Shown here: positions 24,486-38,493 of the stretch, in pieces
Numbering within the stretch: the first letter of the stretch is position 1
How the letters are laid out: each line of letters opens with the position of its first letter
Source of the DNA: an uncultured Bacteroidales bacterium
GTDB lineage: Bacteria; Bacteroidota; Bacteroidia; Bacteroidales; Paludibacteraceae
NCBI GenBank assembly: GCA_900319005.1
Contig: ONMV01000010.1
Coordinates: 1 to 45,092 of the forward strand
Length of the DNA: 45,092 nucleotides
Direction of reading: 5' to 3'
Translations under genes and position numbers: made by a program
Notes under the pieces: generated by a model
Seen by the model: the letters and a program-made list of their open reading frames with translations, nothing else
The model's database searches: none
What the model was told of the DNA's origin: nothing

Positions 24486-26126
24486 TTACTTATAAAGGAA
24501 TCGTTTGATTGATTTCTTGGGGGTTTTCTCAAAGGGTTGCTCTTGTACCTCAATGTCTGACACTTTGCTGTAGGAAGGAATCAAACTATTGAGTTTCTGC
24601 AAGTTCTCCTTCATCAGTTGTTGTATCTCATCGAGTGTCATTCGCTTGGTGAGGGTCTCGTCGGGAAAGACGAGTGCTACCAGTTTACCTTCGCGTTCTA
24701 CGATGAGCGATTCGCCGACAGCCTCTTGGTTGTTGAGTTTGTCTTCAATCTCCTCAGGGTAGATATTCTGTCCCGAAGCACCGAGGAACATCGTTTTGCA
24801 ACGTCCTTTGATATAGATATTTTTCTTCTTGTCGAGTCGTCCGAGGTCTCCTGTACGCATCCAACCGTCTTCGGTGAACACAGCTTTGGTAGCTTCAGGA
24901 TTCTTGTAATAACCAAGCATCACGTTCTCTCCCTTGACAAGGATCTCACCGATACCTGCTTCGTTCGGATTATCAATCTTAACGTCCATATTCATTACCG
25001 GCACTCCTCCTGAACGAGCTTTGAAATACTTAGGAGGGTTACCACCGATAAGCGGACCGCATTCAGTCATTCCGTATCCGATAGAGAGCGGGAAATGGAT
25101 ATCCATCAGACATTTCTCCACGATGGGGTTCATGGCCGCTCCTCCGCAGATGAAATAGCGTAATCTACCGCCGAAGGCACTACGCAGACCGCTTTTGACG
25201 CGGCTTTTGAGGATAGCACCGATGATAGGTGTATGCCAGAACATGCGGATGATCCATTTGCTGAGCGTCGGGTCCAGATTCTTCTTGTATATCTTCTCGA
25301 TCACCAGCGGTACGGTTACCACCAGATAAGGCTGTACCTCTTTGAGCGCTTTGAGCAGAATAGAAGGGGTGGGGCTCTTGGTCAGGAAATAGATGTGGGT
25401 ACCGCAGCAAAGCGGGTAGAGCAGTTCGCAAACCTGACCGAACATGTGAGCGAGCGGTAACATCGATACGATCCGCTGTCCCGGATCCACTGGCAGGATC
25501 TTCATTCCAATTTCGATATTATTGCTAATCGACCGTCCGTTAAGCATCACGCCTTTGGGCGAACCGGTCGAACCGCTGGTATAGTTAATGAGCGATACGG
25601 CATCGGGATCGGCTGCGAAATGAATATCCTCCGGCATCAAAGGGCGCGGATATTTTGCTTTGAATGCAGCTTCCCATTCCTCTTTGGAGGGCATTGGAGC
25701 ATCCTTTGCGGTATAGAGCGGACGCCAATCTTCCAGTGAAAGGGCGGCTTTCAAACGCTTAGGCAAGGCTTTGTTTTGCAATTCTTTCCATACATAAGGA
25801 CCTACGAAGAGCAAATCCGAATCGGAGTGATCCAATAGATGCGCTATGTCATCCGCCGTGAAATCCTGTAATATGCTGACAACCACGCCTTCATAGGAGG
25901 TGATAGCAAGATAGGCAGCTGCCCAGTTAGCGCAGTTACGCCCCGCTAAAGCTATTTTGTCTCCGCGCTTGATACCTAACTGCTCAAACAACACATGGAG
26001 CTTCACCATTTCCGTAGCTAACTCCGCAAAAGTGTACTCATGATTCTCTCCGAAGTCCGTCAATGCAGGGTCGTTCCACTGATGTGACATGACGTCGGTC
26101 AGATAATTTAAATAATGTTTAACCAT
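24486..26126 (-). CDS. Long-chain fatty-acid CoA ligase (AMP-binding), copy 1
   Basis: About 546 residues. It activates a carboxylic acid to acyl-AMP then acyl-CoA. The AMP-binding P-loop is NYTSGSTGSPKGVML near residue 190, with GYGMTECGPLIGG, the TGD motif GWMRTGDLGRLD, and the C-terminal lysine region KTPKKSIKRFLYK. Residues 1-8 of the longest frame would begin at a TTG inside the -7 promoter box, so the ATG at 26126 is the start. It is a tandem paralogue of the next gene, sharing its length and both end motifs. Substrate chain length is unknown. Confidence 0.92.
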   Translation of the reverse strand: MVKHYLNYLTDVMSHQWNDPALTDFGENHEYTFAELATEMVKLHVLFEQLGIKRGDKIALAGRNCANWAAAYLAITSYEGVVVSILQDFTADDIAHLLDHSDSDLLFVGPYVWKELQNKALPKRLKAALSLEDWRPLYTAKDAPMPSKEEWEAAFKAKYPRPLMPEDIHFAADPDAVSLINYTSGSTGSPKGVMLNGRSISNNIEIGMKILPVDPGQRIVSMLPLAHMFGQVCELLYPLCCGTHIYFLTKSPTPSILLKALKEVQPYLVVTVPLVIEKIYKKNLDPTLSKWIIRMFWHTPIIGAILKSRVKSGLRSAFGGRLRYFICGGAAMNPIVEKCLMDIHFPLSIGYGMTECGPLIGGNPPKYFKARSGGVPVMNMDVKIDNPNEAGIGEILVKGENVMLGYYKNPEATKAVFTEDGWMRTGDLGRLDKKKNIYIKGRCKTMFLGASGQNIYPEEIEDKLNNQEAVGESLIVEREGKLVALVFPDETLTKRMTLDEIQQLMKENLQKLNSLIPSYSKVSDIEVQEQPFEKTPKKSIKRFLYK

Positions 26127-26147
26127 ACCCAAAACATTTTTGCGCTG

Positions 26148-26179
26148 CAAAATTACTACTTTTTTTTGATATATGCAAG
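26148..26179 (-). promoter_or_regulatory. Promoter of acyl-CoA ligase copy 1
   Basis: Read leftward: CTTG (26179-26176), 20 bases, TAATTTTG (26155-26148). The -33 region is a near palindrome, TTGCATATATCAA. Confidence 0.85.
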
Positions 26180-26231
26180 ATTTTGATAATTTTTATCAGA
26201 AGAATAGTGATTTCATAATGTGCTTTGTCAT

Positions 26232-26268
26232 AAAAAAACGAGTGCATAGCTTCACAGTTACACACTCG
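26232..26268 (-). terminator. Rho-independent terminator of acyl-CoA ligase copy 2
   Basis: On the minus strand a 10-base stem (CGAGTGTGTA with TATGCACTCG, two G-U pairs) and a 10-base loop are followed by seven T (26238-26232). It lies 100 bases after the gene and before the copy 1 promoter, so the paralogues are separate units. Confidence 0.85.
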
Positions 26269-26368
26269 CTTTGATTTCCCATTTCAGAGAAATCCATCTA
26301 CTTACTCACATAATTATTTACAGAAACGTTGTGGATACTCACAAAAACCACAACGCGGGATGCGATAT

Positions 26369-28018
26369 TTATTTGTACAAATATCGCTTGATGGAGCGTT
26401 TCGGGGTCTTTTCAAACTCCGAAGCCACTAATTCTATAGAGTTAATCTGGCTATACACCGGAAGGGTCTTGTTTACCGCTACGCGGTTCTCTTCCATCTG
26501 TTGAGTCAGACTCTTTGTTCCTAAAAGTTTCTTGCCTTCCGTAGAAGTATCAGGGAAGACCAACGCCACCAGTTTATGATCGCGGTCCAAAACGATGGAC
26601 TCTACAACACCGGGCATGGAGTTCAGTTTGTCCTCCAATTCCTCGGGGTAAATATTCTGTCCCGAAGGACCGAGAATCATGTTCTTTGAACGACCGTGGA
26701 TATAGATATTTCCCTCTTTATCAAGTACTCCGAGGTCACCAGTCCTCATCCATCCATCCTCTGTGAAGGCTGCTTTGGTAGCTTCGGAGTTCTTGTAATA
26801 CCCCTTCATGACGTTGATACCTTTCACTTGAATCTCACCATCCTTGGAGGTAGGATCTTCAGAATCAATACGCACGCGGCACTGCGGCAACTCTTTTCCG
26901 CAACTATGGAACGCATAACGGAACCAGTCTTCATAACTGATAAGCGGTCCGCATTCCGTCATTCCGTATCCCACGCAGTACTGATAATGTATATCGTGCA
27001 GCACTTGCTCTACCTCGCCGTTCAGGGCGGCACCACCGATAATAAGGAATCGTAATCTGCCGCCGAAGATCTTATCCAAACCTTCTTTCACTTTTTTGCG
27101 AACGATGGTCTTGATAATCGGGGTTTGCCAGAGAATCTTCATGGTCGGGGTACTGATCTTTGGCAGTACACCTTTCTTGATGATTTTCTCGATAACCAAA
27201 GGTACCGTCAGGATCATGAATGGTTTCACTTGTGCGAACGCTTTCATGAGCACAGTCGGGGTGGGGGCTTGCGTCAGGAAATACACCTCAGCACCATCGC
27301 ACACCTGATAGAGGAACTCGAACATCAGACCGAACATATGGGCGATAGGCAACATTGAGAGCACTTTATCGCCCGGTTTATGAGGAATACGCTGACAAGC
27401 GAACTCTACGTTTCCGCTCAAGTTCAAATGAGTCAGCATCACGCCTTTCGGATTGCCCGTTGAACCGCTCGTATAATTGATGACTGCTATCTCGTCGAAG
27501 TTATCTGTAGGATAATGTACATCGCTTACCTTCACTCCTTTCGGATATGCCTTTTTGAATGCCTCTTCTGCGCCCTCATAAGCTTTGGAGAATTCCGGCG
27601 TAGCCTCCACGATGTGCATATCGTCCATGAAGATGGTCGCTTTTAGACCCTTCATCTGCTTGGGGTCAATACGCTTCATTACGTTCGGACCTACGTACAA
27701 GAGTACAGCCTCGGAATGGTCCACCAGTGAGTAGATGCCCTCTGCCGTGAAATCCGGCAGGATGCTGACTGTTACCGTACCATACGATTCAACAGCCAGG
27801 AAAAGGAGTCCCCAGTTTGCACAGTTACGACCGCAAAGAGCAATCTTATCGCCCTCCTTAATACCGCACTCGCGCCAAGTGACATGCAATTTTGCAATCT
27901 CTCTCGCTATATCGGCGTAGGTATATTTATGTTCACCATCGAAATCGGTCATCGCCAAATAATTCCATTTGGCGCGTATCGTTTCCTCCAAGTAGGATAA
28001 ATAGTGTTTAGTAGCCAT
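26369..28018 (-). CDS. Long-chain fatty-acid CoA ligase (AMP-binding), copy 2
   Basis: 549 residues. The P-loop NYTSGSTGNPKGVMLTH lies near residue 180, VGYGMTECGPLIS near 325, GWMRTGDLGVLD near 405, and the end is EKTPKRSIKRYLYK. The same domain order and near-identical ends as the gene downstream mark a tandem duplication, but the sequences have diverged widely (for example SWKEL-like and alignment-poor stretches in the N-terminal third), so substrates may differ. It has its own promoter (28037-28067) and terminator. The patatin-like lipase gene upstream in the same direction could supply its fatty acids, an inference. Confidence 0.92.
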   Translation of the reverse strand: MATKHYLSYLEETIRAKWNYLAMTDFDGEHKYTYADIAREIAKLHVTWRECGIKEGDKIALCGRNCANWGLLFLAVESYGTVTVSILPDFTAEGIYSLVDHSEAVLLYVGPNVMKRIDPKQMKGLKATIFMDDMHIVEATPEFSKAYEGAEEAFKKAYPKGVKVSDVHYPTDNFDEIAVINYTSGSTGNPKGVMLTHLNLSGNVEFACQRIPHKPGDKVLSMLPIAHMFGLMFEFLYQVCDGAEVYFLTQAPTPTVLMKAFAQVKPFMILTVPLVIEKIIKKGVLPKISTPTMKILWQTPIIKTIVRKKVKEGLDKIFGGRLRFLIIGGAALNGEVEQVLHDIHYQYCVGYGMTECGPLISYEDWFRYAFHSCGKELPQCRVRIDSEDPTSKDGEIQVKGINVMKGYYKNSEATKAAFTEDGWMRTGDLGVLDKEGNIYIHGRSKNMILGPSGQNIYPEELEDKLNSMPGVVESIVLDRDHKLVALVFPDTSTEGKKLLGTKSLTQQMEENRVAVNKTLPVYSQINSIELVASEFEKTPKRSIKRYLYK

Positions 28019-28036
28019 AAATGTTCAAATTTTTTG

Positions 28037-28067
28037 CAAAATTACAATTTTTTTTTCATATAGCAAA
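28037..28067 (-). promoter_or_regulatory. Promoter of acyl-CoA ligase copy 2
   Basis: Read leftward: TTTG (28067-28064), 19 bases, TAATTTTG (28044-28037). The palindrome is largely lost here. Confidence 0.8.
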
Positions 28068-28133
28068 AGATTTCGCGATTTTTTTTGCCTTTTTTGACGA
28101 ATTATCGATTTTCTTGATATTTTTTTTGAAATC

Positions 28134-28925
28134 TTAAACTTTTTCGTACCTATCTAATGCCTCATTCATGATCTTTTTTCCATCGGCGATGATTTGTTCG
28201 GCTTTGTCAAAATCGAAGGTGTTATAGGCATATTGGCGCATCACAGCGTGTATATCGGGTGGGGTTATTCGGAGTGAGAGAAGGGTATTCTGCTGAATTT
28301 GCATGTCACTCATTCGATCCAGAATACTGAGGAAGTTCAGTTTATGGTCGATAGCGATGCTGTCTTTGCCGCTTATATCCATTGCTACCAAAAGGTCACC
28401 CTCCGTTCGTTCTACTACATGCAGCGGTAATGGGTTTAGAATACCTCCATCTATGAGCACATACTTGCCGATATGTACCGGTTCGAAGAAGAGCGGTATG
28501 CTGATGGACGCGCGTACGGCTTCAAAAAGGCTGCCTGTACGGAAAACCACCTCTTCTGTACTCATTATATCTGACGCAACGATAGTACATGGAATGTTCA
28601 ATTGTTCCATCGGACGATCCGGCACAATGGTCTGTAACTCTTCAATGATGCGTTGTCCTTTTACCAAGCCGTTTCCGCTAAGTAAATTTATATCCATCAT
28701 CCTAAGGATGAGCTGCTTATCCACTCTGAGGAACCATTCTTTGGCTTCTTTGAGTTGTCCTGCGGCGTACATACCAGCGATAATGGAACCCATCGAGCAG
28801 CCTGCTATACTGGTAATCGTATAACCACGCTCCTCAAGGGCTTCAATCGCACCAATATGCGCGAGTCCTCGCGCACCTCCTGAACCAAGGACAAGTGCAA
28901 TGTGCTTATTAGTCGTTGGATTCAA
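28134..28925 (-). CDS. Patatin-like phospholipase (RssA/NTE type)
   Basis: 263 residues. The oxyanion loop GSGGARGLAHIG lies at about 14-25, the nucleophile motif GCSMGS near 43 contains the catalytic Ser, and the dyad Asp is in DGGILNPLP near 174. Family enzymes release fatty acids from phospholipids or lysophospholipids. No membrane helix or signal is seen, so it is probably cytoplasmic. The only usable start is TTG (28925), since an in-frame stop lies four codons upstream and the next Met is inside the active-site motif. It is 20 bases after gcvT, the last gene of the leftward operon. Confidence 0.9.
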   Translation of the reverse strand: MNPTTNKHIALVLGSGGARGLAHIGAIEALEERGYTITSIAGCSMGSIIAGMYAAGQLKEAKEWFLRVDKQLILRMMDINLLSGNGLVKGQRIIEELQTIVPDRPMEQLNIPCTIVASDIMSTEEVVFRTGSLFEAVRASISIPLFFEPVHIGKYVLIDGGILNPLPLHVVERTEGDLLVAMDISGKDSIAIDHKLNFLSILDRMSDMQIQQNTLLSLRITPPDIHAVMRQYAYNTFDFDKAEQIIADGKKIMNEALDRYEKV

Positions 28926-33059: not shown

Positions 33060-34022
33060 ATGCCAATTATGATTATTGAAAAGAAAAATACGCAAATTAT
33101 CGCTGTCATCGCGTTGGTGGTGTCGATGATTTTTTGGTCCATCAGCGGTATCGCTATCAAACAGGCTTTGACCATACTGCCTCCACTAACGCTGATTGTG
33201 ATGCGATTTACACCCTCCGTGCTGCTGATGTTAGTTATCGGTCTAATGTGCCGTAAGAGCGAACTGTTTTCGTTGCAGCGTGTGAGTAGGCGTGACCTGC
33301 CTCTTTTTATCGCTGCGGGTTTCTGTCAGCCGTTCTTGTACTATCTGTTGGAGGTGTTCTCGTATAGTGCACTCAACAGTCCGACCATCGCCGAGGCATT
33401 GTTGTCCACTTCACCGCTTTTGGCACCTCTGTTTGCCGCTGTTTTGTTGCGCGAACGTGTCACGCGCAATAATATAATAGGTGTTCTCATTTCTACGATC
33501 GGTATGTTGTTGTTGATACTCGTGGGTAGCAGCGATTTTGCAATAGGCAGTTACTGGGGTGTTTTGCTGGCATTTGCTGCGGTATCAGCAGCCATCATGG
33601 ATACGATTCTCATGCGCAAGATTCCGGACAGATACAACCCACTGACCATCATTTTTTATGCCCAGACAGTGAGCCTGCTGTTCTTCTATCCCCTTTGGTG
33701 GTGGAAGGAGGGAGGAAGTGATTTTCGATTTTTGATTTTCGATGAACGATTTTCGAATTACGAATTATTGACTGCGCTGGGTTGTGTGGCTTATCTGACG
33801 GTTTTTGCAAGCGTGATTGCTTTCATTCTCTTCTGCTATGCATTGCGCAGAGTGGGTGTGACTCAAGCCAATGCCTTCAATAATATCCGTCCAGCTTTCA
33901 CGGCATTATGGATGTTACTCTTTTTCGGTGAACAAATGCCTGTAGCGAAGTGGATCGGTATGGTTTTGATCATTTTGGGCTTGTTTGTATGCCAAAAGCA
34001 AGAAAAATTAAAAAAATATTAA
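33060..34022 (+). CDS. EamA-family (drug/metabolite transporter) membrane protein
   Basis: 320 residues with about ten membrane segments in two EamA halves. The first begins IIAVIALVVSMIFWSISGIAIKQ with the typical PPLTLIVMRF after it; the second half starts near SYWGVLLAFAAVSAAIMD and closes with RPAFTALWMLLFFGE. Family members export metabolites or amino acids; the substrate is unknown. A loop near residues 222-237 (SDFRFLIFDERFSNYE) is encoded by seven 7-base repeats. The start may be 33060 or the ATG at 33069, both shortly after the promoter. It precedes the 5-alpha-reductase gene but has its own promoter. Confidence 0.9.
   Translation: MPIMIIEKKNTQIIAVIALVVSMIFWSISGIAIKQALTILPPLTLIVMRFTPSVLLMLVIGLMCRKSELFSLQRVSRRDLPLFIAAGFCQPFLYYLLEVFSYSALNSPTIAEALLSTSPLLAPLFAAVLLRERVTRNNIIGVLISTIGMLLLILVGSSDFAIGSYWGVLLAFAAVSAAIMDTILMRKIPDRYNPLTIIFYAQTVSLLFFYPLWWWKEGGSDFRFLIFDERFSNYELLTALGCVAYLTVFASVIAFILFCYALRRVGVTQANAFNNIRPAFTALWMLLFFGEQMPVAKWIGMVLIILGLFVCQKQEKLKKY
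33720..33768. repeat. Seven 7-base units inside the EamA gene
   Basis: GATTTTC, GATTTTT, GATTTTC, GATGAAC, GATTTTC, GAATTAC, GAATTAT. They encode a charged loop between membrane segments. Confidence 0.88.
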
Positions 34023-34028
34023 CATTTA

Positions 34029-34060
34029 TTTGCATATACGAATTATTATTCGTACCTTTG
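34029..34060 (+). promoter_or_regulatory. Promoter of the 5-alpha-reductase/OYE/SDR unit
   Basis: TTTG (34029-34032), 20 bases, TACCTTTG (34053-34060). It overlaps the end of the EamA spacer and is the only promoter seen for the next three genes. Confidence 0.85.
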
Positions 34061-34084
34061 TGCGTTTTTTAACAAACAATCAAT

Positions 34085-34900
34085 ATGGACTATTTGAATA
34101 CCTCTTTCGGCGATTTGCTGTTTATCATGTTTTTGATCGGCTTAGTCGTCTTTGTGTCACTTTATTTCGTGGACGCGGGTTACGGTAAGATGCGTTCGGA
34201 GAAATGGGGTCCGTCAATGAATAACAAGGCGGGATGGTTGCTCATGGAGTGCCCGGTCTTTTTTGTGGTTTGGTATGAGTATTTCAAGGCGTTGGGAGGT
34301 CCAGATCCCGTAGTATCAGAGGCAGTGAAGAATGCACCGTACTGGTTGTTCTTCCTGTTCTTTGAGTTCCACTATTTCCAGCGGTCTTTCATCTTCCCGT
34401 TCCTGCTGAAAGGAAAGAGCAAGATGCCATTTGCAATCATGATCATGTCAGTAGCCTGGAACTTGATTAACGGATACATACAGGGCTATTTTCTGTTCCA
34501 TATAGCGCCGAGTGATCCGTATTACTCGCAGTTATATAGTTCAGCATGGCTCACCGATCCGCGTTTCATCATCGGAACGGTAATCTTCTTTACAGGATGG
34601 ATTATTAACATGCATTCCGATTACGTAATCCGTCATTTGCGCAAACCCGGAGACACTAATCATTACCTTCCGAAAAAAGGCATGTACCGGTTTGTAACGA
34701 GTGCCAACTATCTGGGGGAGATCACCGAATGGTTTGGTTTTGCGATCCTCACATGGTCGTTTGCGGGATTGTTGTTCTTCTGGTTCAGTTGCTGCAACCT
34801 CGTACCTCGTGCCAACTCGATATATCATAAGTACGAGGAGGAATTCCCGAACGAGTTCGACCGAAAGAAACTGAAACGAATCATTCCGTTTATTTATTAG
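34085..34900 (+). CDS. Steroid 5-alpha-reductase family membrane enzyme (SRD5A-like)
   Basis: 271 residues with about six to seven membrane segments. It resembles vertebrate SRD5A1/SRD5A2 as I recall them: INMHSDYVIRHLRKPGD (174-190) against INIHSDYILRQLRKPGE, SANYLGEITEW (206-216) against GANFLGEIIEW, and the ending RIIPFIY against ALIPFIF. The catalytic pair has counterparts in E55 (LLMECPVFF) and Y97 (EFHYFQRSF). Family enzymes use NADPH to reduce the delta4 double bond of 3-ketosteroids. The length is near 254-260 in vertebrates. It is first in a promoter-led unit with an OYE and an SDR. Steroid or bile-acid substrate is inferred; a native isoprenoid-type substrate remains possible. Confidence 0.88.
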   Translation: MDYLNTSFGDLLFIMFLIGLVVFVSLYFVDAGYGKMRSEKWGPSMNNKAGWLLMECPVFFVVWYEYFKALGGPDPVVSEAVKNAPYWLFFLFFEFHYFQRSFIFPFLLKGKSKMPFAIMIMSVAWNLINGYIQGYFLFHIAPSDPYYSQLYSSAWLTDPRFIIGTVIFFTGWIINMHSDYVIRHLRKPGDTNHYLPKKGMYRFVTSANYLGEITEWFGFAILTWSFAGLLFFWFSCCNLVPRANSIYHKYEEEFPNEFDRKKLKRIIPFIY

Positions 34901-34953
34901 TCTTGATCTCGTGATCTTTAGCCTCGTGATTCCGAAATAAATATCAATCATCA

Positions 34954-36228
34954 ATGGATAAATTGTTCACTCCCTTCCAACTGGGGCCTATCACACTGCG
35001 GAATCGAATTATCCGCAGTGCTGCTTTCGAAAATATGGCGCGCAAAAATGCGCCTACACAACAATTACAGGACTATCACGTGAGTGTAGCTCGCGGCGGA
35101 GTAGGTATGACGACGGTAGCGTACTGCGCAGTGGATCTGAGCGGTGTTTCCTTTGACGGTCAGCTCTATGTTCGTCCGGAGATAATCCCCGATATGAAGA
35201 AGATGACCGACGCTATCCATGCGGAGGGTGCGAAAGCGAGTATCCAATTGGGACACTGCGGCAACATGACGCATATATACACCTGTCATTGCATCCCCGT
35301 GAGCGCAGATACATGGTTTAATCTCTATAGCCCGACTATTCACCGCGCCCTCAAAGTGGCGGAGATCAAGAACCTCGTTAAGAAATTCGGAGAGGCGGTC
35401 GATTGGGCACGAGAGTGCGGCTTTGACTGCGTGGAGATCCATGCGGGTCATGCCTATCTGCTTTCCCAGTTCATCGCTCCTAGAACCAACCACCGCCGCG
35501 ATGAGTACGGCGGCTCGTTTGAGAACCGTGTCCGTTTCATGAACGAAGTGCTGGACGAGGTGATGGCGCACGCCAAAGATGATATGGCGGTAGTCGTTAA
35601 AACGAACATGTGGGATGACTGCTGGCATGGTGTGACGATCGAAGAGGGTATCAAAGTAGCGAAAGAGATAGCCAAGCATAAGGTACATGGTATCGTTCTC
35701 TCGGGAGGCACCGTGAGCCGCAGTCCGATGACAATTCTTGGCGGTGCAATGCCCTATAAGACCTTGGCGCATTACATGGATATGAAATCGTTTTGGTGGC
35801 TCAAAGCCGCTCTGAATATCCCCGGTGTACACCAGATCATGCTGCCTACCAAGCCGTTCAAAGAACTCTATTTCATGGACAAAGCGAAACTATTCCAAGA
35901 AGCGCTGAAGGAATGTGACGTGCCCCTCATCTACGTAGGCGGCGTGCAGAGTGGCGATAACTGCCAGCAGATCATGGACGAGGGTTTTGAACTCTTCCAG
36001 ATAGCCCATGTGCTGATCAAGGATTCCGATTTCGTGAAGCATGTGCAGTCTGACCCGCATTATCATGCCGGTTGCGGACGATCGAACTACTGTGTAGGAC
36101 GTATGTACACGCTCGATATGAAATGTCATGAGTGCGTAGAGCGTGACGGAGAAGTCATCGCCCCGCGTATCAAACGTGAAATAGCCAAATTAGAAGAAGA
36201 TGCTCGCCTTAGTAACAGGAGCAAGTAG
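34954..36228 (+). CDS. Old-Yellow-Enzyme family NADH:flavin oxidoreductase, single domain
   Basis: 424 residues, an FMN barrel of the type that reduces activated C=C bonds. PFQLGPITLRNRIIRSAAFEN at the N-terminus, IQLGHCGN, and EIHAGHAYLLSQFIAPRTN followed by RRDEYGGSFENRVRF are the hallmark motifs. The C-terminal Cys cluster CX5CX10CX2C (about residues 375-395) suggests an iron-sulfur cluster. There is no C-terminal FAD/NADH domain as in 2,4-dienoyl-CoA reductase. In gut Bacteroidales and relatives such proteins have been reported as delta4-3-ketosteroid 5-beta-reductases. It starts 53 bases after the SRD5A-like gene, across short repeats. The substrate here is inferred from the neighbours. 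Confidence 0.88.
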   Translation: MDKLFTPFQLGPITLRNRIIRSAAFENMARKNAPTQQLQDYHVSVARGGVGMTTVAYCAVDLSGVSFDGQLYVRPEIIPDMKKMTDAIHAEGAKASIQLGHCGNMTHIYTCHCIPVSADTWFNLYSPTIHRALKVAEIKNLVKKFGEAVDWARECGFDCVEIHAGHAYLLSQFIAPRTNHRRDEYGGSFENRVRFMNEVLDEVMAHAKDDMAVVVKTNMWDDCWHGVTIEEGIKVAKEIAKHKVHGIVLSGGTVSRSPMTILGGAMPYKTLAHYMDMKSFWWLKAALNIPGVHQIMLPTKPFKELYFMDKAKLFQEALKECDVPLIYVGGVQSGDNCQQIMDEGFELFQIAHVLIKDSDFVKHVQSDPHYHAGCGRSNYCVGRMYTLDMKCHECVERDGEVIAPRIKREIAKLEEDARLSNRSK

Positions 36229-36979
36229 CGGAATAGGCTTGCAGTACGCAACGCAACTCGCACGCGATTATCAATGCGACTTGCTGCTGGTCAGCAACCA
36301 GCAGAAAGAGTTAGACGAGGTAGCTCATGACCTCGCCGAGCAGTTCCATGTGAAGACAATCCCACATTTTGCGGACCTCAGCGAACATGATGCCGCTGAG
36401 AAATTATACGCATGGTGTCAGGAAAAAGGGTATGAAGTGGATGTGCTGATCAATAATGCCGGCGTTTTCTTTTTCAACGAATATTGCCAAACGGACATTA
36501 AGCGAATTGATCTGATGCTGCAACTTCATGTGGTGACGGTAGCAAAGATGACGAGGCTCTTTGCCGCAGATATGTGCGCGCGTAGGCGTGGGTATATATT
36601 AAATATGAGTAGTATGTCCGCATGGATGGCGATGCCTGGTATTCAGACCTACAATGCCACCAAAGCATTCATCTATAATTTCTCGAAGTCCCTTTGGTAC
36701 GAACTGAAACCCTACAACGTTCATATCACAGTCATGGCACCAGGGGCAGTAGATACAGGTCTCTTCGGTTTGGCTCCAAACTTACGCAAGTTAGCGGTTA
36801 ACCTAACGGTCTCGATACCTCCGGAGAAACTGGTCAAAAGGGCATTGAAGAAACTCTTCAAGGGCAAGAAAGCCGACACTCCGGGCTTCATCAACTGGCT
36901 CTCCACACCTATGTTGAAACATACGCCGGATTGGGTTCTCCTCTTCGCCCAAAAGAAACTGAAACGATTCATGAAATAA
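36200..36979 (+). CDS. SDR-family dehydrogenase, hydroxysteroid-dehydrogenase-like
   Basis: 259 residues. ALVTGASSGIGLQYA at the N-terminus binds the cofactor; NNAGVFFF lies near residue 88, and the catalytic Ser is near NMSSMSAWM with YNATKAF (Tyr-x3-Lys) near 153. The C-terminal helix region resembles 17-beta-hydroxysteroid dehydrogenase 3/12-type and 3-beta-type enzymes, but the substrate cannot be read. It begins 29 bases inside the OYE gene, at a position matching the usual SDR start, so the two are tightly coupled. With the two reductases upstream, a keto-to-hydroxyl step on the same substrate is likely, an inference. Confidence 0.86.
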   Translation: MLALVTGASSGIGLQYATQLARDYQCDLLLVSNQQKELDEVAHDLAEQFHVKTIPHFADLSEHDAAEKLYAWCQEKGYEVDVLINNAGVFFFNEYCQTDIKRIDLMLQLHVVTVAKMTRLFAADMCARRRGYILNMSSMSAWMAMPGIQTYNATKAFIYNFSKSLWYELKPYNVHITVMAPGAVDTGLFGLAPNLRKLAVNLTVSIPPEKLVKRALKKLFKGKKADTPGFINWLSTPMLKHTPDWVLLFAQKKLKRFMK

Positions 36980-36996
36980 TTCAAATGGGTACCATT

Positions 36997-38493
36997 ATGA
37001 AACACTTAACCTTCATTTTCACACTCTGCTTTGTTTCGATGGCAGTGTGTGCTAACGTCATTACCTACACGGCAGATGACCAAACAATCTTCCCGAATCC
37101 GGAAAGAGGTTTTACGGATGAGTTAGGTGGAGAAACAATGCTTTCTGACTCCAAAAATCATGTGGTTAAACCTGAGGCGGATTGGTATTTTGAGGAGTTT
37201 GGAGGCAAGCAAACGCTTACCGTACTGATCTATTATTTAGGCAATTACAGGACTAAAGGCCTGTCGGATAAGATACTGCAGGGCTTTGATGAAGACATGC
37301 AAATCCTTCGGGATAACGGCTTTAAGTGCGTGCTGCGTTTTGCCTATGATTGGAATTCCAAAAACGATGCGGAACTACAGTGGGTCAAACGTCATATTGA
37401 GCAGTTAAAACCTCATTTGGCTGCTAATTCCGATGTGATCTATGTGATGGAGACCGGCTTTGTAGGTCAGTGGGGCGAGTGGTACTATAGTTCAAATTTT
37501 GGGAATGAGACGCAGAAACTGAATAATAACCGTCGTCAGGTTTTGGAGGCTATGTTAGATGCCTGTCCGTCCAACCGTTTCTTGCTGGTTCGTTATCCGC
37601 TTATCAAACTAAGTTATTTAGGCGATGAGGTTCCTTTGAGTTCCGAAGAGGCATTCTCGGGTTCAATCCGTGCCCGTATTGGACATCATAATGATGCGTT
37701 CTTGGCGGATTGGGGGAATGACGGAACATATGGACGTGATGGCGATGGACCTGATGATGACCCTGTTCTTCGTCAGTATATTGCGGATGAGACCCTGTAT
37801 GTGCCAAATGGCGGCGAGACGAATGTGGAGGGCTCTTTGGCAAGCCAAGTATATAAACAGGCCGAGAGCGAGATGAGCAAATATCATTGGTCCTTCTGCG
37901 GCTATAGTTATTCGCGCGATGTGACAGACAAATGGCGTTCCTCCGGTATCTATGCTAATCTGGATCGTAAGATGGGTTATCGCTATCAACTGACGACCGC
38001 AACTATCCCTTCGGCAGTTAATCCCGGAGGCGAAGCTCGTGTCGTGCTGAAGATTAAAAATGCCGGATATGCTCCGCTCTATAATGAACGTAAAGTGTAT
38101 ATCGTCCTCAAAAATGGTAATAAGAGTTATTCCATCCCCTTGCAATCCGACCCACGTCGATGGAAACCTAATGGGGTAGTCACCACGATAGATGAAACGC
38201 TCTCCATTCCCGCAGAGATACCTGCCGGTACGTATCAGCTGTACCTCCATATGCCGGACGCAGCTGAGAGTCTGGCAGCCGATCCGCGCTATGCCGTGCG
38301 CTTCGCCAATGTAGGTACATGGGACGCCACGACGGGTATGAATAAGCTCAATACCACGATGGAGATAACAGGCAGTACGGCGATTAACCAAAAGCAAACC
38401 GCCCCGCAGGTGGATAAGATCCTGCGAGACGGTCAGTTAATGATCCGCAAAAACGGCAAACTATATACCGTCCAAGGTACGGAGTTATTTTAA
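36997..38493 (+). CDS. Secreted DUF4874/DUF4832 protein
   Basis: About 498 residues. The longest frame starts 66 bases earlier inside the SDR end, but MKHLTFIFTLCFVSMAVCAN at 36997 is a clean signal peptide, so I use it. FPNPERGF near residue 32 marks the DUF4874 start, ETGFVGQWGEWYYSS is the barrel-like centre, and DAFLADWGNDGTYG begins DUF4832. A beta-rich module follows (residues 340-460). The end, KILRDGQLMIRKNGKLYTVQ, resembles the C-terminal tail of type IX-secreted proteins in Bacteroidales. Probable surface or extracellular polysaccharide-related role, unproven. It overlaps the S41 gene by nine bases. Confidence 0.82.
   Translation: MKHLTFIFTLCFVSMAVCANVITYTADDQTIFPNPERGFTDELGGETMLSDSKNHVVKPEADWYFEEFGGKQTLTVLIYYLGNYRTKGLSDKILQGFDEDMQILRDNGFKCVLRFAYDWNSKNDAELQWVKRHIEQLKPHLAANSDVIYVMETGFVGQWGEWYYSSNFGNETQKLNNNRRQVLEAMLDACPSNRFLLVRYPLIKLSYLGDEVPLSSEEAFSGSIRARIGHHNDAFLADWGNDGTYGRDGDGPDDDPVLRQYIADETLYVPNGGETNVEGSLASQVYKQAESEMSKYHWSFCGYSYSRDVTDKWRSSGIYANLDRKMGYRYQLTTATIPSAVNPGGEARVVLKIKNAGYAPLYNERKVYIVLKNGNKSYSIPLQSDPRRWKPNGVVTTIDETLSIPAEIPAGTYQLYLHMPDAAESLAADPRYAVRFANVGTWDATTGMNKLNTTMEITGSTAINQKQTAPQVDKILRDGQLMIRKNGKLYTVQGTELF

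Follow-up and report, generated by a model that had tools for sequence, protein, structure and literature searches.

The formation of isoallo-bile acids by gut Bacteroidota has been attributed to three enzymes with clustered genes. In Parabacteroides merdae, disruption of a 5α-reductase (5AR) gene led to the loss of allo-products, and this gene was clustered with those of a predicted 3β-hydroxysteroid dehydrogenase (3β-HSDH) and an NADH:flavin oxidoreductase for which a 5β-reductase (5BR) role was hypothesised (PMC10382948). In the reported series, 3-oxolithocholic acid (3-oxoLCA) is converted to 3-oxo-Δ4-LCA by 5BR, to 3-oxo-alloLCA by 5AR and finally to isoalloLCA by 3β-HSDH (PMC10672800), and further accounts of clustering or activity in Bacteroidota have been published (PMC12697870, PMC12789469, PMC9645264). 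Here we analysed a locus with the same parts in a 45,092-nucleotide stretch of DNA (the window; contig ONMV01000010.1 of assembly GCA_900319005.1), which is contig 13 of a 2.18-Mb, 85% complete genome of an uncultured Bacteroidales bacterium of the family Paludibacteraceae. The locus encodes a 5AR homologue, a flavin mononucleotide (FMN) oxidoreductase of the Old Yellow Enzyme family (OYE) and a short-chain dehydrogenase/reductase (SDR). Judged from its genes, it is probably an operon for steroid A-ring reduction and isomerisation, like those described in gut Bacteroidota.

The isoallo cluster of P. merdae, Odoribacter laneus and Bacteroides dorei (PMC10382948, PMC10672800, PMC12789469, PMC9645264) and the window share the three clustered enzyme types and the order Bacteroidales. 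The first-pass annotation of this DNA had drawn this likeness and had added, as a contrast, that all three types lie in one block in the window. The likeness held, whereas the contrast did not, since 5AR, 3β-HSDH and flavin oxidoreductase genes had already been described as clustered (PMC10382948). The differences are that most of the window's relatives whose source is named come from ruminants, and that an EamA gene and a promoter dyad accompany the three genes. The EamA gene, the dyad and the change from Gln to Met in the 5AR signature were not among the features pointed out in the first-pass annotation.

All three genes are on the forward strand. The gene for 5AR, an SRD5A-type membrane 3-oxo-5α-steroid 4-dehydrogenase homologue of 271 aa (34085..34900), is followed by the gene for the OYE, a predicted 5β-reductase/Δ4-dehydrogenase of 424 aa (34954..36228), and that for the SDR, a predicted 3β-hydroxysteroid dehydrogenase of 259 aa (36200..36979). 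A check of the open reading frame (ORF) coordinates found the three genes as first proposed, including an overlap of exactly 29 bases (36200-36228) between the OYE and SDR genes. Each protein scored above its Pfam cut-off (5AR with PF02544, 132.2 bits, E 2e-38, cut-off 22.6; OYE with PF00724, 188.6 bits; SDR with PF00106, 135.3 bits), which bore out the three enzyme types in one block.

The 5AR matched steroid reductases with E-values of 4.9e-52 (PbSRD5A, PDB 7c83) and 1.9e-37 (human SRD5A2), compared with 2e-5 for the very-long-chain enoyl-CoA reductase (TECR)-like art-1. A vertebrate-like motif had been pointed out in this protein, and it is real, with INMHSDYVIRHLRKPGD aligning against INIHSDYILRQLRKPGE of human SRD5A2 (7bw1). 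The counterparts of the catalytic Glu and Tyr, also proposed earlier, are E55 and Y97. The SRD5A2 positions E57, Y91, N160, D164, R171, N193, E197, R227 and Y235 are kept in the window 5AR, while Q56 is changed to M54 and H231 to I246. Of the eight NADPH-binding residues listed for SRD5A2 in PMC7815742, which also gives the residue roles, seven are present. Among 165 Bacteroidales rows (some genomes were counted twice), E55, Y97 and six of these seven residues were invariant, and the seventh, N208, was found in 164. Outside the stand-alone list (136 rows, 7 of them with no OYE in their flanks), the position of the NADPH-binding His was occupied by Ile in 131 rows and by Leu in 5; among the 29 stand-alone Bacteroidales rows, 22 had His. 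Besides belonging to PF02544, the window 5AR has the catalytic Glu and Tyr of SRD5A (7c83, 7bw1), its C-terminal motifs and most of its NADPH residues; it differs in having M-E-Y for Q-E-Y and, for the His, Ile (Leu in a few of its relatives). Since Met replaces Gln at position 54, we regard it as an SRD5A-family homologue with a variant M-E-Y signature rather than a strict Q-E-Y enzyme.

In a 66-row tree, built by a quick method from hand-chosen rows and rooted on the long TECR row, a branch with an SH-aLRT of 100 separated 38 OYE-adjacent 5ARs from 28 others, the latter including 25 stand-alone Bacteroidales 5ARs, PbSRD5A and human SRD5A2. The tree was drawn without five of the 30 stand-alone loci (L121, L124, L125, L128 and L138) and seven family-level 5ARs that had no flanking OYE.

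The OYE residues H163, H166, Y168, C102, C374 and C380 were found in 132 of 132 rows of at least 395 aa, and C391 in 131. Its barrel with His-x2-His-x-Tyr is as in BaiCD/FadH-type flavoenzymes and the ci2350 5β-reductases (PMC12238238). The window protein has 424 aa, compared with 642 positions in the BaiCD model. The iron-sulphur motif of FadH and BaiCD is C-x2-C-x3-C-x11-C; unlike it, the C-terminal Cys set of the window OYE is C-x5-C-x10-C, a spacing that appears to resemble a thinned-out form of the motif. No relative of the OYE was encoded on the viral contigs that were searched.

The SDR tree was a weak test, separating 23 operon SDRs (SH-aLRT 96) from only two other SDRs, both very long-branched. 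The same genome has a second member of the SDR subfamily, encoded by a stand-alone gene on contig 26 (7927-8718; L187 4928-5719, minus strand), which is 39% identical to the SDR of the operon. As a guess, this paralogue could supply the other 3-hydroxyl stereochemistry, perhaps as a 3α partner.

Two records of named species served as anchors. In Parabacteroides distasonis (NZ_OY725754.1), an NADH:flavin oxidoreductase (WP_005861966.1, 52% identical to the window OYE) is directly followed by an SDR (WP_009276610.1, 43%); no 5AR was found within the 13 kb read, and an efflux pump is encoded there. P. distasonis reportedly makes 3-oxoLCA from 3-oxo-Δ4-LCA and interconverts 3-oxoLCA, isoLCA and LCA, with a 3α-HSDH also named, in a strain not matched to this record (PMC11647740). 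The earlier assignments of the OYE as a 5BR and of the SDR as a 3β-HSDH gain weight from this gene pair and the matching reported phenotype. In Phocaeicola massiliensis (OY726067.1), adjacent 5AR (53%) and OYE (53%) genes are followed by a different SDR (22%). Neither species is among the three named for isoallo activity, and no P. merdae locus was found among the best 80 of 151 5AR loci. Both records came from a plasmid collection. The P. distasonis record carries genes for ribosomal protein L25 and aminoacyl-tRNA hydrolase, so the two plasmid-labelled records may be mislabelled pieces of chromosomes.

Relatives of the block were collected by a 5AR scan of named genomes, and the 80 loci used here are the best 80 of 151 confirmed; their titles give Paludibacteraceae, Bacteroidales, Bacteroidia or Candidatus Colicola. 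The OYE gene lies 3′ of the 5AR gene on the same strand in all 80 (one OYE runs off the contig), with a median gap of 34 bases and a gap below 200 bases in 76. An SDR gene is present in 78 loci, and 27 of these have the same 29-base overlap. The genomes drawn from the same genus all matched PF02544 (12/12), with a strong 5AR in 11 and a weak one in the other, and matches were found in 75 of 150 family-level and 116 of 295 order-level genomes, many of the latter weak. The association was also seen from the OYE, as a same-strand 5AR was found no more than 2 kb from 29 of the 35 order-wide OYE places with at least 400 bits, counts that include the window OYE. When 1.5-kb flanks were inspected, 5AR was found in 26 and SDR in 17 of the best 30 OYE loci, and OYE in 20 of the best 27 family-level 5AR loci of the window type. 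The distances of the three proteins correlate, with r of 0.89-0.92 over 90 loci and 0.50-0.61 over 66 genus-level loci, part of which arises from shared ancestry alone.

Several loci departed from the common pattern. The 5ARs of L144 and L145, two genomes of another Bacteroidales family (f81), nest within the rows of the window family (SH-aLRT 99), and their OYEs are 81% identical to that of the window; horizontal transfer or a family-boundary artefact is the likely cause. In L101, L102, L103 and L109, from caecum, rectum and colon, the OYE is 63-64% identical to the window protein, compared with 72% for the 5AR, and L100, with no site named, has a similar pattern; the OYE of the L101/L102/L103/L109 branch may have been exchanged or may evolve fast. 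In three genomes of one genus of family f75 (L112, L116 and L118), a stand-alone 5AR shares its strand with a distant OYE located about 9 kb from it, perhaps as a different steroid cluster.

The promoter had been placed at 34029-34060, and this stretch indeed reads TTTG (34029-34032, +), 20 bases and then TACCTTTG (34053-34060, +), which we take to be the −33/−7 form of Bacteroidota promoters. The −7-like element, TAnnTTTG, was found within about 110 bases upstream of 5AR in 73 of the 80 loci. An inverted repeat, TACGAA-N6-TTCGTA (34037..34054, +), sits between the −33 and −7 elements and overlaps the promoter, its right arm sharing TA with the −7 element. With up to three mismatches allowed, the number of chance matches to this dyad expected for the window is 0.02. 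The 2.18-Mb genome has no second exact copy; since the three one-mismatch sites are all inside ORFs and a reversed control pattern gave more of them (8 per strand versus 4), no dyad regulon was found, although further sites may be missing because the genome is incomplete.

Using a layout that was defined after the sites had been seen (outer TA; TTTG two bases past the right arm), we found a perfect dyad at most 220 bases upstream of 5AR in 37 of the 80 loci, or 40 when one mismatch was allowed; the perfect form was absent from 43. There was no other perfect dyad on the plus strand of the 961,435 bases searched. The arms were TACGAA in 32, TACAAA in four and TACTAA in one of the 37, and both arms change together (compensated in 5). 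In 200 base shuffles of the upstream stretches, the mean number of loci with a dyad was 0.005 and the maximum was 1. The dyad accompanied 37 of the 92 TAnnTTTG sites upstream of 5AR, compared with one of 680 other TAnnTTTG sites on both strands, counts that are not independent because the loci are related. No exact TACGAA dyad was seen in family-level or order-level loci outside the genus, and no regulator gene for it was identified. The dyad is probably an operator for a dedicated regulator.

The gene upstream of the promoter encodes an EamA-family transporter (33060..34022, +; PF00892, 134.5 bits). It was found upstream of 5AR in 72 of the 80 loci (E 1e-10) but not in the other eight, so it is not essential; it is a probable accessory gene of the module. 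Directly 3′ of the SDR gene on the same strand is a gene for a DUF4874/DUF4832 protein (36985-38493), which is downstream of SDR in nine of the 80 loci and is therefore probably outside the module. Farther upstream, on the minus strand (24486-28925), two genes for AMP-binding, acyl-CoA-synthetase-like proteins and one for a patatin-like phospholipase stand in tandem, a lipid-handling neighbourhood with no shown link to the operon.

Since the parts are those of the published Bacteroidota cluster, we propose the same series of reactions on 3-oxo steroids. The OYE would interconvert 3-oxo-5β and 3-oxo-Δ4 steroids, and the membrane 5AR with NADPH would reduce the Δ4 bond from the α face to give flat (allo) 3-oxo-5α products, the 3-keto group of which the SDR would reduce to a 3β-hydroxyl (iso). 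Run in series and in this direction, the enzymes would turn 3-oxo-5β bile acids or similar steroids into 3β-hydroxy-5α (isoallo) products. The three genes would be transcribed from the operon's own promoter, and control is probably exerted through the dyad that lies between −33 and −7. Movement of a substrate or product is the probable role of the EamA protein.

Several results weigh against this proposal. The Gln of the Q-E-Y signature is Met in all 165 Bacteroidales rows, stand-alone rows included, and changing Q56 to Ala or Leu abolished the activity of human SRD5A2 (PMC7815742); the NADPH-binding His (H231) is also replaced, by I246. The OYE reached 182.1 bits with the BaiCD model NF041087, compared with an equivalog cut-off of 825, and aligned only with positions 2-255 of 642. 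No NCBIfam model reached its cut-off for the OYE (12 of 12 matches) or, among the matches listed (25 of 213), for the SDR, and none matched the 5AR at E 0.001. The block is not always intact. Of the 35 OYE places with at least 400 bits, six have no 5AR within 2 kb, and the same holds for all 15 places of 200-400 bits, two of which are halves of one gene; several of the non-adjacent places are on other contigs. No matching SDR was found in the 1.5-kb flanks of 13 of the best 30 OYE loci, and no OYE in those of 7 of the 27 family-level 5AR loci of the window type. In a Parabacteroides-like genus, the OYE of which is 82% identical to that of P. distasonis, one genome has OYE-SDR with no PF02544 match and another has 5AR-OYE with no close SDR; the parts are therefore separable, with OYE constant there while 5AR and SDR come and go.

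Bile acids, plant sterols and hormones are all candidate substrates. The enzymes may carry out the same chemistry for another purpose, acting in the foregut on feed-derived steroids (phytosterol-derived 4-en-3-ones or plant steroids) or on host hormones, with bile acids incidental; saturation would then serve as an electron sink or blunt membrane-active steroids. We consider this a real possibility, though not the expected outcome. A host is named in the titles of 28 of the 80 loci (25 ruminant, two horse and one pig); the remaining titles (with RUG, UBA, SRR and the like) name no host, although RUG denotes rumen genomes. A gut site is named for 22 loci: 14 are from rumen, reticulum, omasum or abomasum, upstream of bile entry, and the other eight are from the duodenum, the hindgut or faeces. 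Stomach compartments upstream of the bile duct should contain little bile acid, and the rumen origin of the relatives speaks against bile acid being the main substrate in nature. Moreover, a search of the 85%-complete genome from which the window comes found no bile salt hydrolase, and while some match was present in seven of the 12 same-genus genomes, it was strong (>200 bits) in only two, compared with a strong 5AR in 11. On the other hand, bile acids are the substrates of the nearest relatives for which activity has been reported, and no sterol-uptake or 3β-HSD/isomerase gene was among the Pfam matches of the window, the part of the genome that was searched. Rumen contents also convert added bile acids to alloCA, 3β-CA and isoHDCA (PMC11193847).

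A non-steroid function appears very unlikely; the operon would then serve lipid saturation, and the 5AR-like protein would reduce polyprenols or very-long-chain enoyl-CoA. PF02544 also covers such reductases, the protein has a weak DUF1295 match, and the uniform Met at the Gln position would be in line with this reading. However, the E-values given above favour the steroid reductases over art-1, the catalytic Glu and Tyr are invariant, and the 5AR is frequently paired with an OYE, which is not known from polyprenol or enoyl-CoA reductase pathways. Grouping with fatty-acid or isoprenoid reductases, which the first-pass annotation had named as the outcome that would count against it, was thus not seen, and the fatty-acid assignment was rejected on the E-values, the comparison including no isoprenoid reductase. 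The 5AR tree was not used on this point because long branches meet at the TECR row, whose end branch of 10 is too long for it to be placed. As for a chance neighbourhood of three oxidoreductases with no joint pathway, the OYE and SDR superfamilies are indeed large and common, but the recurrence of all three genes in 78 of 80 loci, of the identical overlap in 27 of 78 and of 5AR-OYE pairs in many Bacteroidales families led us to reject it as having a negligible probability.

A steroid A-ring operon in this lineage bears on a reaction of the rumen. In a 2024 study in the ISME Journal, the products that rumen microbes formed from added bile acids included alloCA, 3β-CA and isoHDCA. Neither 5α-reductase nor 3β-HSDH is one of the eight KEGG types that it found in rumen metagenome-assembled genomes (82 types were searched, with the full list in the supplement), and L-ribulose-5-phosphate 3-epimerase was proposed for the 3β step (PMC11193847). 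The terms 5AR, 5BR and Paludibacteraceae are absent from the main text of that paper. Among the matches listed in the open-licence PMC literature, no paper joined Paludibacteraceae with 5α-reductase; one on cow faeces and bile acids, which names the family only as differing in abundance (PMC9983187), was not used. Clustered 5AR, flavin oxidoreductase and 3β-HSDH genes that make isoallo-bile acids in gut Bacteroidota were already known, whereas the presence of a strong 5AR in all but one of the 12 genomes of the genus, the upstream EamA gene and the promoter-overlapping dyad are new here.

A broader reading, which we offer tentatively and doubt in its full form, is that rumen Bacteroidales with a nearly fixed, operator-controlled A-ring isomerisation operon act on feed or host steroids before bile entry and are a main foregut source of allo- and iso-steroids, with the OYE-linked 5AR clade (M-E-Y, Ile/Leu) forming a separate subfamily that differs in function from the Q-E-Y SRD5A enzymes. 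For the proposed A-ring operon itself, relevance to the rumen is suggested by the 11 same-genus genomes, of 12 drawn, that carry a strong 5AR and by the block, which recurs in 78 of the 80 loci, many from samples whose titles name the rumen or another stomach compartment. The operon is a chemically sensible gene set for both rumen steps, allo and 3β, and a possible source of the genes behind them, so that the question of rumen bile acids becomes testable by expressing three genes. Its enzymes are ordinary in kind, and the value of the operon lies in connecting a rumen-type lineage with a rumen reaction that has had no explanation.

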